A stretch of DNA of 64,000 bases from Fundidesulfovibrio terrae (GTDB taxonomy: Bacteria; Desulfobacterota; Desulfovibrionia; Desulfovibrionales; Desulfovibrionaceae), in the NCBI RefSeq assembly GCF_022808915.1, contig NZ_JAKZFS010000003.1, positions 62,001-126,000 of the forward strand, read 5' to 3'. Below the pieces are notes generated by a model. The model worked only from the letters and a program-made list of their open reading frames with translations. It did not search any database and was not told the DNA's origin. The translations under genes and the position numbers were made by a program. This document shows, one piece after another, positions 10,937 to 51,096 of the stretch (the stretch's first letter is position 1; the number at the start of each line of letters is the position of its first letter).

Positions 10937-11680
10937 CTACAGTTCGAAATGAACCTTGAGGTCCTTGGCGTTGTAGCGGCTGACCAGGATCTCGGTGCGC
11001 TCGCGGTCGCTCATGATGAGCTTGTAGCTGCCCCCGCTCCAGGGCAGGATTTCGGCCACGTGGTTCAGGTTCACCAAGTGGCTGCGGTGGGCGCGGAAGA
11101 AGCCGTGGGGCACGAGCCGGGCCTCCAGTTCGGAGATGGTGGCCTTGACCGTGTAGCGCCCGTGGACCGCGTGCACGGTGATTTTCCCCTCCTCGCTGGT
11201 GACGAAGAAGATGTGCTTGGGCAGGGTGGGCACGATGCGCTCGCCGTCGTACAGGGGGATGCGCCGCTCGGGCTGCCCGGGGGCCGGAGCCTGGGGAGCG
11301 GCGGCGGCGTCCAGGCGCAGGAAACGCCGGGCCTTGTCCACGGCCTTGCGCAGCCGCTCCAGGGTGAAGGGCTTGAGGATGTAGTCCAGGGCGTCGAGCT
11401 CGAACGCCTTGACCGCGTGCTCCTCGTAGGCGGTGACGAAGACCAGCAGCGGCTTCTTGGGCAGGTCGCCGAAGAGATAGGACAGCTCAAGCCCCGAGAG
11501 CCCCGGCATCTGGATGTCCAGGAAGATCAGGTCCGGCTCCAGCTCCCGGATGTCCGGCAGGGCGGCGCGGCCGCTGGGGGACTCCCCCACCACCTCCACG
11601 TTCTCGATGCGTCCGAGCAGGTGCTTGAGTTCGCGGCGCACCGGGCCTTCGTCGTCGATGATGAAAACGGTCAGGTTCAT
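10937..11680 (-). CDS. LytTR-family response regulator
   Basis: A 247-residue regulator. The receiver domain (1-120) has the acidic pair DDE near 9-11, phospho-acceptor Asp55 (LIFLDIQMP) and Lys103 (DYILKPF). An Ala/Pro linker is followed by a LytTR DNA-binding domain (about 145-246) with the typical FFRAHRSHLVNL and GGSYKLIM segments. The gene overlaps the upstream kinase gene by four bases (ATGA), so the two form one two-component system. Targets are unknown; the lut operon next door on the same strand is one possibility. Confidence 0.9.
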   Translation of the reverse strand: MNLTVFIIDDEGPVRRELKHLLGRIENVEVVGESPSGRAALPDIRELEPDLIFLDIQMPGLSGLELSYLFGDLPKKPLLVFVTAYEEHAVKAFELDALDYILKPFTLERLRKAVDKARRFLRLDAAAAPQAPAPGQPERRIPLYDGERIVPTLPKHIFFVTSEEGKITVHAVHGRYTVKATISELEARLVPHGFFRAHRSHLVNLNHVAEILPWSGGSYKLIMSDRERTEILVSRYNAKDLKVHFEL

Positions 11681-13830
11681 GCGCGGGGAATGGAAAAGGA
11701 TATGGAGGTTCCCTGCCCGGGGCTGCTTTCGATGCGCAGGCCGTGCTGGGCACCGTGGATGGCCACAAGCCGGGCGTTGACGTTGCGCAGGGCCAGTCCG
11801 GTGCCCTGGGGCGGGGGCGACGCGCCGGTCTCGTCCAGGAGCGAGGCGGCCACGGAGGGTTCCATGCCCACGCCGTTGTCGCGCACGAAGATGCGCACCG
11901 CCCCGTTTTCAGGGTGCGCTCCGATGACGATCTCGCCGCCCTCCTCCTTGGGCATGATGCCGTGGCGCAGGGCGTTCTCCACCAGTGGCTGCAGGATCAG
12001 CGGCGGCACCGGGCATTCCAGGGCGGCCGGGTCGATGTCGTAGGCCACCCGGAGCCGCTCCTCGAAGCGGGCCCGCTCGATGGAGAGGTAGTCCTCGCAG
12101 TGCTCAAGCTCCTTGGACAATGGGACGCTCGCCCCGCCGGGCTTGATGTTCTTGCGGAAGAAGTCTCCCAGCTTCACCAGCAGGTCCGAGGCGGTCTCGG
12201 GGTCCGTGCGGATGTAGTGCATGATGGAAGTGATGGCGTTGAACAGGAAGTGCGGGTTGATCTGGGCCTGGAGCATCTTGATCTCCGCGTCCGTGCGCAG
12301 CTTCTTCTGGCGTTCGGACTCGAGCAGGGCCAATTCGGCCTGGCGCTTGCTGGTCACGTCGCGCACCACGGAAACCACGCACTTCTCCCCGCCTATCTCC
12401 ACCAGCTCGCCCGAGCGCTCCGCCGTGATCACCTCGCCGGACTTGAGGCGGTACTGCACCTCCTGCACGCTGGTCTTGCCCTGGAGCAGGAAGGACTCGT
12501 CGAGCTCATAGCGCTCGTCGGGGTTTGCGTAGATGCCGATCTCCATGGAGGTCTTGCCGATGACCTCCTCGCGCGTGAAGCCGGTGATGACCATGAAGGC
12601 GTCGTTGACGTCCACGTACCGGCCGTCGGGCATGCTGAGGATGGCGATCCAGTCCGGGCTGTGGCGGAAGATGCGCTCGAACTTCTCCTCCGACTCGCGC
12701 AGGCTGGCCTCGGTCTTCTTGCGGCCCTGGATGTTCACCCACAACGCCACCAGCATGCCGAGCATGACCATGAAGGCCGCGCTCACGGCCAGCACCTTGC
12801 CCCGGTGTTCCTCGTAGAACGAGGCCGGGCGGTTGATGACCAGGCTGTCTTCGGGCAGAAGGCTGGTGGAGATGCCGAAACGGCGCAGCTGCTCGTAGTC
12901 GAACATGTAGCGGTTGGTGCTCTCCTTGACCACGGGGATGTCGCGGACCTTCTCCCCGTCCAGGATGCGCAGCGCCATGCGAGCAGCCACGCTGCCCTGG
13001 TCGACACCGCTGGTCAGAAGTCCCCCCACGATGCCCTTGCCCAGGTAGAAGTCCCACACGCCGTATATGGGCACTCGAGCCTGGCGGGCCACCAGCTCGA
13101 TGGATTCGTCGTAATCGAAGGGATTGCCCGAGCGGTCGCGATTGAATGTCAGAAGCAGGATGATGTCGCCCTGGGCCAGGGAGCGGACCCGCGTGAGCAG
13201 CTCGTCCATGTCCAGGTCGTCCAGGTAGGTCACGGAGACCTTCTTCTCGAATTCCGGCAGCACCTCGGCCAGGACTTTCTTGTTGGCCAAGCCCGTGGCC
13301 GAGCGGTCGTTGATCACCACGATGCGGTAGGTTCCGGGCTGCAGGGCAAGGGCGGTGCGCAGGGTATTGCGCACGTCGTAAGCCTCCACCACGCCGGTGA
13401 AGAAATCCCTCTTGCCCGCGAGCTTGTCCTCGTCGAAGAAGTTCACCCCGCAGAACACGACCGGCGCGTTGGGAAAGAGCGTGGCCCGCTTATCCAGCAG
13501 GAACTGGAAGGCGTCGTCGTCGGAGGCGATGACCGCGTCGAAGCGCACCCGGGCGTACTTGTCTTTGAGGAAATCGGCCAGGCGGGCGTCGTCGCGGCTC
13601 TCGTGGACCCGCTTGGTGTCCATGTATTCGGTGAAGACATCCACGTGAGGGGCGGCCCCCAGCACGGACATCATGCCCGCGTCCACGCTGTCGGTCCAGG
13701 CAAGCCCCTTGTGATAGGAATGCAGCACCAGGATGCGTCTCTTATCCTGGGGGAAGGCTCCCGTGGCGCTCAGGAGCAGCATGGCGGCGACCGCCAGCAG
13801 GGCGAACGGTTTGAAGAAACGAAAACTCAT
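11677..13830 (-). CDS. LytS-like sensor kinase with periplasmic ABC-substrate-binding-type sensor
   Basis: A 717-residue membrane kinase. A signal/anchor helix (8-27) is followed by a periplasmic domain of the ABC_sub_bind type (about 32-320, beginning RRILVLHSYHKG), a second helix (345-365), a PAS domain (378-495), a His_kinase domain with QINPHFLFNAI (phospho-acceptor His527) and a HATPase (about 620-717, DNGVGM and GTGLAL). This is the LytS class, paired with a LytTR regulator. The sensor is homologous to the separate binding protein encoded at 40461-41495. It probably senses a small ligand in the periplasm; the ligand is not known. Confidence 0.87.
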   Translation of the reverse strand: MSFRFFKPFALLAVAAMLLLSATGAFPQDKRRILVLHSYHKGLAWTDSVDAGMMSVLGAAPHVDVFTEYMDTKRVHESRDDARLADFLKDKYARVRFDAVIASDDDAFQFLLDKRATLFPNAPVVFCGVNFFDEDKLAGKRDFFTGVVEAYDVRNTLRTALALQPGTYRIVVINDRSATGLANKKVLAEVLPEFEKKVSVTYLDDLDMDELLTRVRSLAQGDIILLLTFNRDRSGNPFDYDESIELVARQARVPIYGVWDFYLGKGIVGGLLTSGVDQGSVAARMALRILDGEKVRDIPVVKESTNRYMFDYEQLRRFGISTSLLPEDSLVINRPASFYEEHRGKVLAVSAAFMVMLGMLVALWVNIQGRKKTEASLRESEEKFERIFRHSPDWIAILSMPDGRYVDVNDAFMVITGFTREEVIGKTSMEIGIYANPDERYELDESFLLQGKTSVQEVQYRLKSGEVITAERSGELVEIGGEKCVVSVVRDVTSKRQAELALLESERQKKLRTDAEIKMLQAQINPHFLFNAITSIMHYIRTDPETASDLLVKLGDFFRKNIKPGGASVPLSKELEHCEDYLSIERARFEERLRVAYDIDPAALECPVPPLILQPLVENALRHGIMPKEEGGEIVIGAHPENGAVRIFVRDNGVGMEPSVAASLLDETGASPPPQGTGLALRNVNARLVAIHGAQHGLRIESSPGQGTSISFSIPRA

Positions 13831-40460: not shown

Positions 40461-41495
40461 TTACTGGATCACGGCTCCCGCCGCCTCGATGATCTCATAG
40501 GGGATATCGATGTGCAGGCGTTCCGCCGTCTTGAGGTTGAGCATCACTATCCCGGTGTCGTTGATGCGCATGGGCAGCGTTCCGGCGGGGACGTGATCGG
40601 ACAACGTCTTAAGGGCCATCGTTCCGGCCAGGTAACCCTGCTCGTGCGCGGACTCCAATACGCCGCAGAGGATGTCGTGCTCCAGTGCGTAGTCAGCGAA
40701 GCCCAACGTGGGCTTCACGTTCACCGAGTTGGTCCAGGCCATGACCTCCTCCGGGGACACCACCTTTCCCGTGCTCTCGTCGCGCAGCGATTGGTAGATG
40801 CCGAGCGCCAGGGCGTCCACGGTGGTCTGGCACGCGATGACCCGCCTCTGCCACTGCTGGTAGGAACCTATGACATCAATGTTTTTGATTTCCAGGGCGT
40901 AGGGGCCTCTTTGCTTCAGATCCTCCTGCATGTCCTGGATAATATAGTCCGAGGATTCGGAGGCGTCGGTCAGAAAGGCGATGCTCTGGACAGAGGGGAT
41001 CAGCCGTTTGAGCAGGGCGACCCCCTCCCGGTAGTGCCAGCGCTCGCGCACGCCCGAAACATTGGACGCGGGAAAGCCGTAAATGGACGGCGGCGCGTTG
41101 ACCCCGCAGAACACCACCTGCGGGCGCGGCTTGTCCTTGAGAAAGGGAACGACAACATACGCCTGGGCGGCGTCGTCGGCGGCGATGACCACATCGGGAT
41201 CGAAGTCCCGCATCCGGGTGATGACCTTCCCCGCCGCCTCGGTAAGCAAAGCCCTGGAGGGGGTGCGCTTGGCGTCCAGGTAGGCGTAGTCGTAAACCAC
41301 GGGGAGACTCTCGAGCGCCTCGAGTATCCCCTGGTTGATGTTCTGGGTCCAGACGTATTCGGGATTGTAGCTGTGAAGGACGAAGACGCGCTTCCAGACG
41401 ACCGGGGGCTGCGCTTCCCCAGGCGCGGCCGGAGACGGCGCCAAGGCAGCGCCGAGGACCAGGACCAAAAACATCGCCAGGATGCTTCTTCTCAC
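40461..41495 (-). CDS. Periplasmic ABC-substrate-binding-like sensor protein
   Basis: A 344-residue secreted protein with a signal peptide (MRRSILAMFLVLVLGAALA) and an ABC_sub_bind-type domain beginning KRVFVLHSYNPEYVWTQNINQGI. The same opening occurs in the sensor half of the kinase at 11677-13830. No ABC permease or ATPase is nearby, and a kinase follows at once, so it probably presents a ligand to that kinase rather than feeding a transporter. The ligand is unknown. Confidence 0.78.
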   Translation of the reverse strand: MRRSILAMFLVLVLGAALAPSPAAPGEAQPPVVWKRVFVLHSYNPEYVWTQNINQGILEALESLPVVYDYAYLDAKRTPSRALLTEAAGKVITRMRDFDPDVVIAADDAAQAYVVVPFLKDKPRPQVVFCGVNAPPSIYGFPASNVSGVRERWHYREGVALLKRLIPSVQSIAFLTDASESSDYIIQDMQEDLKQRGPYALEIKNIDVIGSYQQWQRRVIACQTTVDALALGIYQSLRDESTGKVVSPEEVMAWTNSVNVKPTLGFADYALEHDILCGVLESAHEQGYLAGTMALKTLSDHVPAGTLPMRINDTGIVMLNLKTAERLHIDIPYEIIEAAGAVIQ

Positions 41496-43487: not shown

Positions 43488-44681
43488 ATGAAGACACCGG
43501 AAGTGGGAGACAAGAGCAAGATCTTCCACAAGGGCCAGGTCATCTACAAGGAAGGCCAGTCCAGCAACGAAGCCTACATCATCAAGCAGGGGGCCGTCGG
43601 CCTCTACAGGCTCACCGGCAACAAGAGAGTCAACCTGGGCATCCTGCGCCCGGGACAGATTTTCGGCGAGATGGGCGTCATCACCGAGGAGAAGCGAACC
43701 GCCTCGGCCGAGGCCCTGGACTACACCGAGGTCATCGTCCTCGACCAGACGCTCCTGCACACCCTGCTGCTCAAAAGCCCGCGCCCCATCCAGATCATCA
43801 CCACCTACCTGGTGGAGCGCGTGCGCGCCCTCAACTCCCGCGTGTCCGACCGGCCCAGCGCCAACATCTTCGCCTCGGCCTGCAACGTGATGCTGCTGGC
43901 CTGGAAAGCGGCCGCCAAGGCAGCTCCCAAGAACGAGGCCGCGCAGATATCCACGGTGGAGCTTTCCAAGACCATCAAGGACATCCTGCTCATCTCCCAG
44001 GTGGAGATCGACGAGATATTCGACAAGCTGGAGAAGGTGCACATCATCACCATCCTGGACATCAAGGGCACCTACTTCCGCAAGGATCCCCTGCTCGGCA
44101 CCATGAAGAAGTCCAGCGAGTTCGTGAAGGAGCGTCTGCTCTCCATCCCGGACGTGGACCGCTTCGCCAGCGTGGTCAAGAACATGGCCAAGGACAACCA
44201 GGACCACTGCGGCACCGAGATGGAATTCCTCGACCTGGACGACTTCGCCAGGGAGGTCCAGGCCCAGCCGGAAACCCTGCTGAAAAAGATCGCCTACGGG
44301 GAGTTTCCCGAGAACGTCTTCTTCTTCCACAAGGCGTCCGCCCTGGCCTTCGCGGCCAAGAAAGGCCCCGAGTTCTTCCAGCGCGCCAAGCGCCCCCGCC
44401 TCAAGGTCGAAGACCTGGAAACCGTGGACGACATCGTGTCCGTGGACAACGCCACCCTGGACGAGGCCCTTTCCAAGCTGGGGTTCTACAAGGTGTCGGT
44501 GCTGGCGGCCATGGCGGGAGAGGACGCGCGCAAGAAGATATTCCACAATCTTTCCAAAAAGATAGCCACCGTGGTCAAGGAAGAGATGGAGCGCATGGGG
44601 GAACCTGACCCAGGCGAAGCCTCCGACGTGGAAGACGAGCTCATCTCCTGCATCAGGACCATGAAGGGGCTTAACGGGTGA
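43488..44681 (+). CDS. Cyclic-nucleotide-binding-like protein with FliG-C-like end
   Basis: A 397-residue protein. The N-terminal 120 residues are a cNMP-binding beta-roll (FGEMGVITEEKRTASAEA is the phosphate-binding cassette). A middle region (about 150-220) looks like a modified winged helix but lacks a clear HTH_Crp signature. Residues 310-397 (from LETVDDIVSVD to the end) align by eye with FliG-C, including KKIFHNLSKKIATVVKEEM opposite the FliG torque helix; the R281, D288 and D289 positions are Lys, Glu and Glu here. The stop overlaps the motA start (GTGA). I propose a flagellar motor regulator. The FliG resemblance needs a profile check. Confidence 0.75.
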   Translation: MKTPEVGDKSKIFHKGQVIYKEGQSSNEAYIIKQGAVGLYRLTGNKRVNLGILRPGQIFGEMGVITEEKRTASAEALDYTEVIVLDQTLLHTLLLKSPRPIQIITTYLVERVRALNSRVSDRPSANIFASACNVMLLAWKAAAKAAPKNEAAQISTVELSKTIKDILLISQVEIDEIFDKLEKVHIITILDIKGTYFRKDPLLGTMKKSSEFVKERLLSIPDVDRFASVVKNMAKDNQDHCGTEMEFLDLDDFAREVQAQPETLLKKIAYGEFPENVFFFHKASALAFAAKKGPEFFQRAKRPRLKVEDLETVDDIVSVDNATLDEALSKLGFYKVSVLAAMAGEDARKKIFHNLSKKIATVVKEEMERMGEPDPGEASDVEDELISCIRTMKGLNG

Positions 44682-45457
44682 ACATAGCAACGGTCATCGG
44701 TTTCGTCGCGGGCGTCATCATCCTGGGCACGGCGACGTTCTTCGCCACGGACTCGGCCCGGGTGTTCATCAACCTGCCGGGGCTGGCCATCGTCCTGGGG
44801 GGCACCCTGGCCTCCACCTTCATCTGTTTCCCGCTCAAGGAAGTCACCCGGGTCTTCAACATCTTCCTCACGGCCCTGAAGCGCGAGGAACTGCCCATCG
44901 GCAACTACATCGAATCCATCGTGCAGATCGCCCGCGAAGCCTCGGCCAGGGGCAAGGTGCACCTGGAGCGGGCGCTCCCCGGCATCGAGAACGAATTTCT
45001 GCAGAACGCCCTGCAGATGCTGGTGGACGGCTACTCCCGCGACGAGATCAAGGAAATCCTCGAAACGCGCATCGAGCAGACCTATCAGCAGGAGATATCC
45101 TCGGCGGGCATCTACCGCACCATGGCCAAGCTCTCGCCCGCCTACGGGCTCATCGGCACGCTCATCGGCTTCATCGGCCTGATGCAGGCCATGGGCGGCG
45201 GCGGGCTGGCGGCGCTGGGGCAGCACATGGCCGTGGCCCTCACCACCACCCTGTACGGCATCCTGCTCTCCAACCTGATCTTTCTGCCCATCGCGGTGAA
45301 GGTGGAAAAACGCATCGAGGAGCGGGTGCTGCTCATGTGCGTGATCCGCGACGGGGTGCTCTTCATCAAGGACAAGGCCCCGGCGGCCATCGTGCTGGAC
45401 AAGCTCAAGGCGTACCTGCCCCCGAGGCGCTGGGCCTCCATCGGGACGAAGTCCTAG
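44678..45457 (+). CDS. motA: Flagellar stator protein MotA
   Basis: A 259-residue MotA/PomA-type protein with four helices. The N-terminus (IATVIGFVAGVIILGTATFF) and the paired C-terminal helices with SPAYGLIGTLIGFIGLMQAM and ALTTTLYGILLSNLIFLP carry the conserved prolines and glycines. The cytoplasmic loop between helices 2 and 3 has the basic and acidic residues that face the rotor. Length is typical. GTG start at 44678 overlaps the previous stop. It forms the ion channel with MotB. Confidence 0.93.
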   Translation: MNIATVIGFVAGVIILGTATFFATDSARVFINLPGLAIVLGGTLASTFICFPLKEVTRVFNIFLTALKREELPIGNYIESIVQIAREASARGKVHLERALPGIENEFLQNALQMLVDGYSRDEIKEILETRIEQTYQQEISSAGIYRTMAKLSPAYGLIGTLIGFIGLMQAMGGGGLAALGQHMAVALTTTLYGILLSNLIFLPIAVKVEKRIEERVLLMCVIRDGVLFIKDKAPAAIVLDKLKAYLPPRRWASIGTKS

Positions 45458-45493
45458 TCCCGCGTTCTTGAAAACACGGTTGCAAGGCGGCCA

Positions 45494-46318
45494 ATGCTCA
45501 AGCTTTCCCAACTCAGAGGGCGCCTCAAGGAAGAGGACGAGGGGACGTGGTTCATCTCGCTGGCGGACCTGCTCACCCTGCTGCTCTGCTTTTTCGTACT
45601 CATGCTGTCCGTGTCCCAACTGGACCAGGAACGCTACAAGAACGTGGCCAAATCCATGGAGGACGCCCTCAAGGCCGAAAAAGCCAAGCGCGCGTCCACC
45701 CAGAGCCCAAGCCGCCCCATGGGGTTCTCCCTCAACCAGGACGCAAGCTCCAGCGGCCAGCTCTACCCCGTGATCCAGCCCGCCCTGCCCCCGCAGGTCT
45801 ACCAGACGCCTCCGGGCCCGGCCACCCAGCCCCCCATGGAGACAGGAGCGAGCCAGCAGCCCAAGACCCTGGACGAACTGGGAGCGGAACTCGGCCTGCG
45901 CTTCGCCCAGGACCCCTCCGGCGTGCAGGTGGAGAAGCGCGAGGGCGGCTATGCCGTCACCCTCAAGGGCGCCGTGCTCTTCGACCGTGGCAGCGCCGAC
46001 CTGAGCCCCACTTCCACCCATTACCTTGATTCCATCGCCACCTCCCTCAAGGGCACGCCCTACAAGGTGACGGTGGAAGGCCACACCGACAACATCCCCA
46101 TCCAGTCGTTCCTCTACCCCTCCAACTGGGAGCTTTCCGCCGCCAGGGCCTCGCGGGTAGCCCGCTACCTCGTAGACCACGGCGTGACCAAGGAACGCAT
46201 CCAGGTGGCCGGATTCGCCGACACCCGGCCCGTGGCCCCCAACGACTCTCCCCAGGGACAGCCCCTGGCGGATAACCAGGCCCGCAACCGCCGCGTGGTC
46301 GTGCTCATCAACCCCTGA
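45494..46318 (+). CDS. motB: Flagellar stator protein MotB
   Basis: A 274-residue protein. One transmembrane helix near 25-45 carries the ion-binding Asp (SLADLLTLLLCFFVLMLSVS). A Pro/Gln/Ser-rich linker is followed by an OmpA-like peptidoglycan-binding domain (about 160-274) with VEGHTDNIPIQ and NWELSAARASRVARYL. Helix and linker fit MotB, not ExbD/TolR. The stop shares a base with the next start (TGATG). Confidence 0.92.
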   Translation: MLKLSQLRGRLKEEDEGTWFISLADLLTLLLCFFVLMLSVSQLDQERYKNVAKSMEDALKAEKAKRASTQSPSRPMGFSLNQDASSSGQLYPVIQPALPPQVYQTPPGPATQPPMETGASQQPKTLDELGAELGLRFAQDPSGVQVEKREGGYAVTLKGAVLFDRGSADLSPTSTHYLDSIATSLKGTPYKVTVEGHTDNIPIQSFLYPSNWELSAARASRVARYLVDHGVTKERIQVAGFADTRPVAPNDSPQGQPLADNQARNRRVVVLINP

Positions 46319-47130
46319 TGGCATCCGACACCCTGGACCGGGGGAACGAGCCCTCCTCGCACAAGCTCAAGGGGATATTCTCCTCCCCCGCCATGCCCGG
46401 CGAGGCCCCCGACCCCGCCGTGCCCAAGCGGTACTGGTTCGCGCGCCAGATCGACGACATCACCATCAACGCCCAGCTCCTGGACGAGCACTACCTGCCC
46501 ACCCCCCGGCAGCACGTCCTGCCCAAGGACGTATTCCTGGCCGACTTCACCCTGGAGCCGGACCTGGGCTACAAGCTGCTCACCCAGCGGGTGCTCATGG
46601 GAGACTATTTCCGCAACCAGGGCCTCAACGTCGAGGCCAAGATCGAGTACCAGAAGCTTCTGCGCATCGACGAGGAGAACATCCGGGGCAACTTCGGCCT
46701 GGGCCTCGCGTATCTGGCCCTCAATCAGCTGGAAAAGGGGCGCTACGCCTTCGAGAAGCTGGTGGGCATGGAGGAAAGCTTCTCCGCCGAACACAAGCAC
46801 CTCTTCAACGAGTTCGGCATCGCCCTGCGCAAGAAGGGACTCTTCGACGAAGCCCTGGCCTTCTACAACCGGGCCAGGGCGCTCTGCGCCGACGACGAGC
46901 ACCTGCTCTTGAACATCACCCGGGCCTGGTTCGAGAAGGGCGACACGGAAAAAGCCTACGAGAGCCTCAAATCGTGCATCGAGATCAAGCCCGACTTCCG
47001 TGAAGCCCTGGCTTTCCTGGCCTACCTGCGCAAGAACCACATCTTCCCCAAGGATGCCGCCCTGAAAGCCCACTTCGACCGCGAAGTGCTGAAGCGTAGT
47101 GAATTCTCCTCGCTGGTGGGCGAGGACTGA
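46318..47130 (+). CDS. TPR protein at the end of the mot operon
   Basis: A 270-residue cytoplasmic protein translated in coupling with motB (TGATG). The N-terminal 90 residues have no family I recognise (RYWFARQIDDITINAQLLDEHYL). The remainder is tetratricopeptide repeats, including FNEFGIALRKKG, the module shared with 13954-14703 and 49996-51096. Position suggests that it assembles or regulates the stator, but that is inference. Confidence 0.7.
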   Translation: MASDTLDRGNEPSSHKLKGIFSSPAMPGEAPDPAVPKRYWFARQIDDITINAQLLDEHYLPTPRQHVLPKDVFLADFTLEPDLGYKLLTQRVLMGDYFRNQGLNVEAKIEYQKLLRIDEENIRGNFGLGLAYLALNQLEKGRYAFEKLVGMEESFSAEHKHLFNEFGIALRKKGLFDEALAFYNRARALCADDEHLLLNITRAWFEKGDTEKAYESLKSCIEIKPDFREALAFLAYLRKNHIFPKDAALKAHFDREVLKRSEFSSLVGED

Positions 47131-49891: not shown

Positions 49892-49998
49892 AGTGTCGCG
49901 TCCCTGAAAAACATGAATATGTTTTTAGGGATAAAAATAATAATTTCTACTTGTTGCCCTCAAGATAAATGTACATTTATCTTGAGGGCGCCACACTA
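49892..49998 (-). repeat. Two-hairpin TA-bounded element, copy B
   Basis: A 107-base element. Read on the minus strand it starts TAGTGTGGCGCCCTCAA and ends CGCGACACT. It has a first hairpin with 15-base arms (CCCTCAAGATAAATG and its complement, two-base loop), an AT-rich linker AAATTATTATTTTT, and a second hairpin of about 11 bases. It is the fuller copy of the element at 3223-3303. Its first three bases are the stop codon of the REC-TPR gene. One border reads TC rather than TA. Confidence 0.75.
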
Positions 49999-51096
49999 GA
50001 TATCCTGCATGCTGTCCAGCGTCCCCGAGGACGGCGGCCCGCCGGGCATGGCCGCGCCCTTGGGCGGCTTGAACTCGCGCCCGAACAGCTTCAGGTGGAG
50101 CTTGAGCCCCTCGGTGAAGTTGGAATTGATCCACAGGGCCTTGAGCAGGGCGTCCTGCGCCCCCTTGTTGTCGCCCATGAAGAACTGGGCCTTGGCCATG
50201 TTGAAGTGGATGTTCTCGTCGTCCGGGGTGAGCTCCAGGGCCTGGCGGTAGGCGTGCAGGGCGCCCGGCAGGTCCCCCTCCTTCCTGAGCTTGACGCCCA
50301 GCGAGTTGAAGGGGTTGGGGCTGGCGGCGTCGTACTTGAGGACCTCGATGAAGAGTTCCTTGGTCTCCTCCAGGCGGTTGAAATGGGCGAAGGTCTCGGC
50401 GGCCTTCTGGAGGTAGTTCTTGTAGCCCTCCAGGTCGCCCTTGCCCTTGTAGGCCTCGGCCAGGCCCTTGTAGGCCTCGGCGTAGAGCTCGTTTATCTTC
50501 ACGGCCTTCTTGAAGGCGATGATGGCCTGTCCGTACTTGAGCTTCACCAGATACTTGCAGCCCATGTCGTAGTATTTCTGGGCTTGGTTGTCCTCGCTGA
50601 CCAGCTCCTCGAAGGCCTCGATGGCGTCCTCGTACTTTCCGGCCGCCAGCAAGCGCTTGCCTTCGCTCAACTGGGCGTGTTCGATCTCCACGAGCCTGTC
50701 GATCTTGAGCGCACGCAGCATGTGGCGCTGGAAGGTCTCCACGGAATAGGGGCGCAGCACGTAGCCGTCCACTCCGGCGGCGATGGCCTCGAGCACGCGG
50801 TCCTTCTGGCCGTCGCCCGTGACCATGACCACGGGCGTATCTTTGAGATTCATGTTCAGGCGCAGAAGCTTCAGGAACTTCACCCCGTCCATGTCGGCCA
50901 GCTGCGAGTCGAGCACCACCAGATCCACGTCCTGCGCGCCCAGGAAATCAATGGCCTCCGAACCGGAAGAGAACTGCTGGATCATGCCCGCCCGGAGTTG
51001 CTTGACGCACTGGCGGTCACGCCGGGAATGCTCCTCCACTCCGGTGACGATGGCCACGACATCCAGCCTGACCGAGGATGCGCCGATTTCCTGCAC
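49996..51096 (-). CDS. REC domain plus TPR protein
   Basis: A 366-residue protein. The N-terminal receiver-like domain (about 10-135) has the Asp in VVLDSQLADMDG and a VTGDG loop. The second acidic residue of the phosphorylation pocket is weak (VTGVEEHSRR). The C-terminal 230 residues are tetratricopeptide repeats ending with FNSLGVKLRKEG...DDENIHFNMAKAQF, the shared module. GTG 51096 is supported by CGGAG six bases upstream. The stop TAG is the first three bases of element copy B. It probably acts as an adaptor in a signalling pathway. Confidence 0.8.
   Translation of the reverse strand: MQEIGASSVRLDVVAIVTGVEEHSRRDRQCVKQLRAGMIQQFSSGSEAIDFLGAQDVDLVVLDSQLADMDGVKFLKLLRLNMNLKDTPVVMVTGDGQKDRVLEAIAAGVDGYVLRPYSVETFQRHMLRALKIDRLVEIEHAQLSEGKRLLAAGKYEDAIEAFEELVSEDNQAQKYYDMGCKYLVKLKYGQAIIAFKKAVKINELYAEAYKGLAEAYKGKGDLEGYKNYLQKAAETFAHFNRLEETKELFIEVLKYDAASPNPFNSLGVKLRKEGDLPGALHAYRQALELTPDDENIHFNMAKAQFFMGDNKGAQDALLKALWINSNFTEGLKLHLKLFGREFKPPKGAAMPGGPPSSGTLDSMQDI

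Follow-up and report, generated by a model that had tools for sequence, protein, structure and literature searches.

In the window analysed here, a stretch of 64,000 nucleotides from Fundidesulfovibrio terrae (contig NZ_JAKZFS010000003.1, positions 62,001 to 126,000 of the forward strand), a three-gene unit on the plus strand encodes a protein of unusual composition followed by MotA and MotB, the predicted A and B subunits of a flagellar stator. The first gene product, termed cNMP-FliG_C, joins an N-terminal domain of the cyclic nucleoside monophosphate (cNMP)-binding type to a C-terminal domain homologous to the C-terminal domain of the rotor protein FliG (FliG-C), and one MotA subfamily is almost always found together with it. 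Judged from its sequence, the protein is best read as a regulator dedicated to the MotA/MotB stator of its own gene unit. Tentatively, and with a probability that falls a little short of even, this regulator would be a FliG-C mimic controlled by cyclic adenosine or guanosine monophosphate (cAMP or cGMP), acting on its own MotAB stator by sequestration through MotA. The elements on which the argument draws are as follows.

43488..44681, plus strand: cNMP-FliG_C gene, 397 amino acids (open reading frame (ORF) and Pfam)
43518..43772, plus strand: cyclic-nucleotide-binding beta-roll, residues 11-95 (PF00027, E 1.5e-20 at residues 13-95)
43662..43703, plus strand: phosphate-binding cassette, residues 59-72 (FGEM...RTA), recognised by conservation of Glu61 and Arg70
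43833..44414, plus strand: middle region, residues 116-309, 194 residues without an assigned fold
44415..44663, plus strand: FliG_C domain, residues 310-392 (PF01706, E 1.1e-9; hhalign, E 2.3e-8; 34 of 34 MotA-linked members)
44520..44597, plus strand: counterpart of the FliG torque helix, residues 345-370, with K358, E365 and E366 (alignment with Escherichia coli FliG and 30 FliG sequences)
44664..44669, plus strand: AAGGGG, the codons of Lys393-Gly394, eight bases before motA and likely also its ribosome-binding site
44678..44681, plus strand: GTGA, stop/start overlap with motA
44678..45457, plus strand: motA, stator A subunit of predicted PomA type, 259 amino acids, GTG start (PF01618, E 1.2e-24)
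45494..46318, plus strand: motB, stator B subunit (MotB_plug, E 1.2e-15; OmpA, E 2.2e-22)

The span 43488-46318 and the four-base overlap between the first gene and motA, as given in an earlier note on this DNA, are confirmed. Papers are cited below by their PMC numbers, each for the excerpt of it that was available.

Homology of the C-terminal tail to FliG-C

The predicted tail domain is homologous to FliG-C, because four lines of comparison (Pfam, PDB, hhalign and scans of the individual members) agree. In Pfam, FliG_C scores 38.9 bits against a curated cut-off of 23.3, and among solved structures the FliG chains 4fhr, 1qc7 and 1lkv match residues 312-393 at E values of about 2e-5. A profile of 48 family ORFs, compared by hhalign with 30 FliG sequences, places residues 311-393 on FliG-C with a probability of 95. 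The 48 ORFs comprise 34 MotA-linked members (the window protein and 33 from fetched loci), which form the alignment used for the counts below, and 14 unlinked ones. Scanned singly, all 34 linked members contain both the cNMP-binding and the FliG_C domain at E<=0.01, and FliG_C lies above its cut-off in eight of ten proteins picked to include distant and unlinked copies. The earlier note had proposed a FliG-C-like tail at residues 310-397, and the profile comparison with FliG, significant for FliG-C, bears this out. MgtE_N is not matched by the window protein in Pfam and appears for one distant homolog, at E 0.022. A fragment model of residues 301-397 is of moderate confidence (predicted local distance difference test score, pLDDT, 62.4); a Foldseek search with it against the PDB returned no match at E<=0.001, with FliG chains at ranks 1 and 3 (E 0.25 and 0.7), an outcome that is compatible with the FliG fold and goes no further. 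The full-length prediction, made without an alignment, reached a mean pLDDT of 39.5 and was used for no search.

The window protein contains a predicted FliG_C domain and yet is not a FliG. It scores 27 bits on the FliG protein model TIGR00207, which has a cut-off of 226.7; the N and M repeats of FliG score far below FliG-C in the hhalign comparison, residues 115-309 find no match anywhere in the 30 FliG sequences, FliG-M included, and the Pfam match to FliG_N is weak (E 0.021). FliG-N and FliG-M are the parts that bind FliF and FliM. The homology of the tail would agree with a FliG variant that takes a place in the cytoplasmic ring (C-ring) and changes the surface presented to the stators, but such a rotor subunit should show some counterpart of FliG-N or FliG-M, none appears in residues 115-309, and this explanation is very improbable.

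Around the counterpart of the torque helix, which is helical at residues 345-370 in the fragment model, the alignment with E. coli FliG places K358 at R281, E365 at D288 and E366 at D289. The charge is kept at these three positions in 32, 31 and 32 of the 34 linked members, respectively, the window protein included. The earlier note had named the same three replacements, without mention of the departures at K264 and R297 that are weighed below. In the excerpt of PMC12505986, the stator-rotor contacts are described as running from MotA R90 to FliG D288-D289 and from MotA E98 to FliG R281. In the whole rotor face, then, three FliG contact charges are kept and two further charges are lost or reversed.

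The nucleotide-sensor end and the middle region

At the opposite end of the protein, the cyclic-nucleotide-type beta-roll that the earlier note had recognised is confirmed by the Pfam match listed above, and solved cNMP domains, such as 6hq3, match the N-terminus at 3e-13. The predicted phosphate-binding cassette is intact: Gly60 and Glu61 are present in 48 of 48 family copies and Arg70 in 45 of 48. The Glu and Arg residues of this cassette have functional roles in phosphate cassettes of the type. Two class III nucleotide cyclase domains are encoded in the same genome, so that cAMP or cGMP can be expected in the cell. No PilZ domain was matched in the window protein by the Pfam and NCBIfam scans.

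The middle region is less readily placed. A profile of residues 116-309 built from 26 members finds no sequence match in the PDB at E<=10. Residues of about 241-290 possibly form a helical unit resembling HTH_17, a helix-turn-helix (HTH) family, which matches two distant homologs at E 0.014 and 0.041, below the cut-off. These weak matches, together with the CRP-like N-terminus and the existence of unattached copies, some of them seen away from motility genes, could suit a cNMP-controlled transcription factor that would bind DNA through its middle region and use the FliG_C tail as a helical module for oligomerisation or reading, with motAB simply sharing the operon. In the window protein itself, however, neither the CRP DNA-binding domain nor any HTH is matched in Pfam up to E 1, and the score on the CRP equivalog model is 32.1 bits against a cut-off of 266. 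Nor would such a factor have to accompany a single MotA subfamily in almost every genome, and we consider it quite improbable.

Association with one MotA subfamily

The MotA of the window is probably of the flagellar stator type (PomA) rather than of the TolQ/ExbB type. It scores 160.7 bits on the PomA model, below the cut-off of 341, and 15.4 bits on TolQ, no NCBIfam cut-off being reached; all its PDB matches at E<=0.001 are MotA or PomA chains, among them the MotA of 8ucs at 113.8 bits. At the position that we take to be E96 of PomA, a glutamate is invariant in this MotA family (34/34), and a basic residue stands nearby, displaced by one position, in 30 of 34.

Occurrence was followed in a family sample of 119 genomes, a class set of 348 genomes from 59 genera and a phylum sample of 395 genomes. 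The whole-genome counts are lower bounds, taken from the best candidates of each genome (up to four in the phylum sample, and in the class set up to five for the protein and up to seven for MotA). Orthologs of the window MotA occur in 36 of the 119 family genomes at 58-100% identity and at least 319 bits. The other MotA paralogs listed there reach at most 37% identity and 151 bits, a wide gap, and the partner is therefore specific. The MotA-linked protein is carried by the very same 36 genomes (36/36), of which the alignment covers 34, leaving out two with short loci (G050 and G109). In the class set, full-length relatives of the protein are found in 74 of 348 genomes and in 19 of 59 genera, all in one family and with the window genome counted; the MotA ortholog is found in 72 of the 348 at E<=1e-70. 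In 71 of these 72 genomes the cNMP-FliG_C gene stands immediately upstream on the same strand, whereas the 72nd, G703, has the two genes at the ends of contigs. The pair is also present in a 73rd genome (G684), where motA reads in two frames and was hence missed by the MotA search. With these two counted, G703 from its contig ends, 73 of 107 copies go with this motA. The earlier note had held that a protein found mostly away from flagellar genes would speak against its idea, and the distribution is not of that kind. In G703 (L143, start of contig C273), the cNMP-FliG_C gene stands at the end of one contig and motA at the start of another, with an assembly break at the locus.

The near-exclusive relation on the MotA side could also belong to a rotary module outside the flagellum, in which MotA5B2 turns, or is read by, the cNMP-FliG_C protein as a private rotor or load sensor instead of the C-ring. 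The position of the locus apart from fliG, the lack of any other flagellar gene recognised by eye in the window and the presence of a second flagellar-type MotA in the genome would fit this arrangement. Against it, the plug and OmpA domains of MotB and the PomA-type MotA are features of flagellar stators according to the excerpt of PMC12505986. Furthermore, fliG is found in 103 of the 119 family genomes, including all 36 linked ones, while 16 of the 119 are without it at the threshold used. A module of this kind is improbable.

Gene overlap and the Lys-Gly codons

The gene layout suggests that translation of the protein is coupled with that of motA. Of the 34 fetched pairs, 27 have a four-base and four a one-base overlap between the two genes; three pairs are without overlap, one of them (L056) having a motA match that begins only at residue 19. 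A purine-rich stretch precedes motA in 33 of the 34 pairs, and in 29 the codons of a Lys-Gly pair lie 8 or 11 bases ahead of its start. Both residues are invariant in the 34 linked copies, and in the 14 unlinked ones Lys is retained in 12 and Gly in five. Because these codons stand at ribosome-binding distance and the residues fade where motA is absent, their invariance is plausibly owed largely to the translation of motA. Simultaneously, five linked copies, L056 among them, keep Lys-Gly at 27 to 67 bases from the mapped motA start; in four linked copies the codons are too distant to serve motA, and a ribosome-binding role is thus not the whole story.

K393-G394 was considered as a functional motif of the protein, a candidate that is weakened by the same ribosome-binding distance in 29 of 34 pairs and by the fading in unlinked copies. 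The Lys-Gly codons at the gene end accordingly call for caution in reading protein function into them, or in deleting the gene.

Copies away from this motA

The unattached copies are concentrated in one lineage: 32 are tandem copies in 16 of the 17 genomes of genus g8, one is in G014, and one is a second copy in G023, about 1.2-1.3 kb past motB. In six fetched g8 loci (L061, L063, L065, L067, L069 and L071), tandem pairs of the same architecture stand without motA, and no match to the window MotA was found within the approximately 6 kb fetched on each side. No motility genes were recognised by eye among the neighbours of two tandem pairs and of the G014 copy.

The linked and unlinked copies differ at certain tail positions. 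An acidic residue at position 365, the counterpart of D288, is seen in 31 of the 34 linked but in 6 of the 14 unlinked copies (p 0.00085), a difference in favour of a contact with MotA; positions 326 and 329 separate the two sets more strongly still, in a comparison whose unlinked set reflects few independent lineages.

In the phylum sample, 26 of 395 genomes have a match at E<=1e-20, of which four belong to family f1 and are full length and three belong to family f6. The other 19 matches all end at or before position 225 of 403, as CRP-like proteins would be expected to do. In the case of f6, the matches reach position 196 in the phylum search, and the protein of about 404 residues matches the family profile over its full length in 3 of 3 genomes of that class, two of the three being members of the profile. 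L119, the one f6 protein scanned, has both cNMP_binding and FliG_C (46.5 bits). The copies (L125 3725-4939, L126 4891-6105 and L127 6440-7690) encode a distant cNMP and FliG_C protein; by eye, the gene lies between a cluster of CheA/CheB and a GGDEF response regulator on one side and a histidine kinase on the other. The contig in G159 also carries fliG, and the one in G194 carries, by eye, the end of a FliG. The occurrence of this architecture in f6 without an adjacent motA implies that it is older than the pairing with MotA or has spread between families. A scan of the wider collection of genome contigs gave one locus, in a Persephonella metagenome-assembled genome, covering residues 314-395, and no full-length relative.

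FliG-C-like frames of another kind were also encountered. In G023 (G023:C56:30904-31311, 182 aa) and G024 (G024:C91:20643-21068, 171 aa), extra frames that match the C-terminal part of FliG and nothing more of it adjoin the normal fliG of each genome and are possible stand-alone FliG-C proteins.

Proposed action on the stator

In the mechanism proposed for cNMP-FliG_C, the FliG_C tail would insert between the cytoplasmic domains of two MotA subunits, into the cleft where rotor FliG-C sits, and binding of cAMP or cGMP at the N-terminal domain would alter the presentation of the tail. One state would keep the stator set off the C-ring, as a sequestration or stator-side clutch, and the other would release it. 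The excerpt of PMC11302681 describes FliG-C tethered to MotA as docking between neighbouring MotA subunits, with as many as three on one stator, and it follows that FliG-C outside the C-ring can occupy the cleft. The MotA in that structure (8ucs) is a homolog of the window MotA. A clutch is one possible sign of the action, and the clutch or brake step, which the earlier note had also considered, is one that we infer. In its sharpest form, the proposal would have a soluble, cAMP- or cGMP-gated copy of the rotor contact domain made with each MotAB set and plugging the MotA cleft until the nucleotide frees it; this version is somewhat unlikely, and if true, motor composition would be set by a rotor decoy rather than by a PilZ brake.

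The same evidence, up to the sign of the action, is shared by a positive adaptor or stator chaperone, whose tail binds MotA and which stabilises, localises or loads the stator, the nucleotide reporting when. The apparently coupled translation fits co-assembly, and a stator chaperone, FlgX, is known (excerpt of PMC6686046). The Pfam scan found no membrane or targeting domain in the protein, however, and an adaptor leaves unexplained why the tail copies a domain that would occlude the rotor contact. We hold this alternative to be unlikely.

Several observations weigh against sequestration by a FliG-C mimic. At the rotor face, K264 of FliG is replaced by A341 in the window protein (Ala or Ser in 31 and Lys in one of the 34 linked members), and R297 by D374, a reversal of charge (Asp or Glu in 32 of 34); with one charge lost and another reversed, the surface is no faithful copy of the rotor face. 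On the stator side, the counterparts of R90 and E98 in the window MotA are only partly kept. Of the 14 unattached copies that were examined, 13 have Lys at position 358 and 13 an acidic residue at position 366; K358 and an acidic 366 are thus as conserved away from motA as beside it, and by themselves are no proof of a contact with MotA, a use of their conservation as sole proof that was dropped for this reason. Meanwhile, 34 of the 107 copies are unattached to this motA, and no motA is adjacent to the three f6 copies. The single true FliG of the genome is encoded on another contig (FliG_C, 142.7 bits), apart from this locus. In the window, no flagellar gene was recognised beyond motAB, by eye from the opening 60 residues of each probable coding ORF and without a profile scan of the whole window. 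Finally, the 194 residues between sensor and tail match neither a PDB entry nor FliG-M.

Comparison with known systems

Second-messenger control at the flagellar motor, as far as it is known, is mainly a matter of cyclic diguanosine monophosphate (c-di-GMP) and PilZ proteins. The PilZ brakes YcgR, FlgZ and MotL are second-messenger receptors that act on motor proteins, as is proposed for cNMP-FliG_C. They differ from it in pairing PilZ with c-di-GMP, whereas the window protein combines a cAMP/cGMP-type domain with a FliG_C tail and has no PilZ match. In the excerpts available, contacts of YcgR with both MotA and FliG are described (PMC10140304), and one of two flagellar systems is the target of MotL (PMC8203827). 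The EpsE clutch shares the idea of a rotor disengaged from the stator (excerpts of PMC3000366 and PMC13432727), but EpsE is glycosyltransferase-like and acts on FliG, whereas cNMP-FliG_C would intervene at MotA by means of its FliG-C copy. FliG itself has the C-terminal domain in common with the window protein, which keeps the charges of R281, D288 and D289; it differs in that the window protein is without a detected FliG-N or FliG-M, has lost K264 and reversed R297, and has a nucleotide sensor at its N-terminus. The likeness to CRP is confined to the sensor domain.

In Pseudomonas aeruginosa, cAMP alters the motor in a MotAB-dependent way, its direct target being left open in the excerpt of PMC6855561; the resemblance concerns a different organism. 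A 2026 review of motility suppression treats c-di-GMP brakes and the EpsE clutch, and in its available passages cAMP acts on gene expression through CRP (PMC13432727). No description of the cNMP plus FliG_C architecture was found in the open-access literature, judged by titles and the beginnings of abstracts. If the proposal is true, a cAMP/cGMP-type receptor with a FliG-C copy, tied to one stator, would constitute a second control route, and cNMP-FliG_C would offer a concrete model, at most a candidate type of answer from a different lineage, for the cAMP target that the excerpt of PMC6855561 leaves open.

Genome context and neighbouring genes

The genome (3.9 Mb, seven contigs, 96.84% complete) has six matches to the MotA/TolQ/ExbB family, three of which were examined. 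Two are flagellar-type MotA by alignment, the one in the window and another on contig 1; after the top-scoring match of the genome come genes that by eye encode TolR, TolA and TolB. The names of several neighbouring genes are presumptive, assigned by eye. Directly after motB stands one further gene.

46318..47130, plus strand: TPR-repeat gene, one-base overlap with motB (TPR models, Pfam)

A counterpart of this gene, at 48-79% identity, lies downstream of motB in some fetched loci and is missing from others. A few kb from motAB, the minus-strand gene at 49996-51096 appears by eye to fuse a response-regulator-like domain to TPR-like repeats. Two other minus-strand genes of the window, at 40461-41495 and 11677-13830, encode proteins that by eye have a common periplasmic-binding-like opening (LHSY...WT); one adjoins a kinase-like gene and the other is longer, and the two are possibly related sensors.

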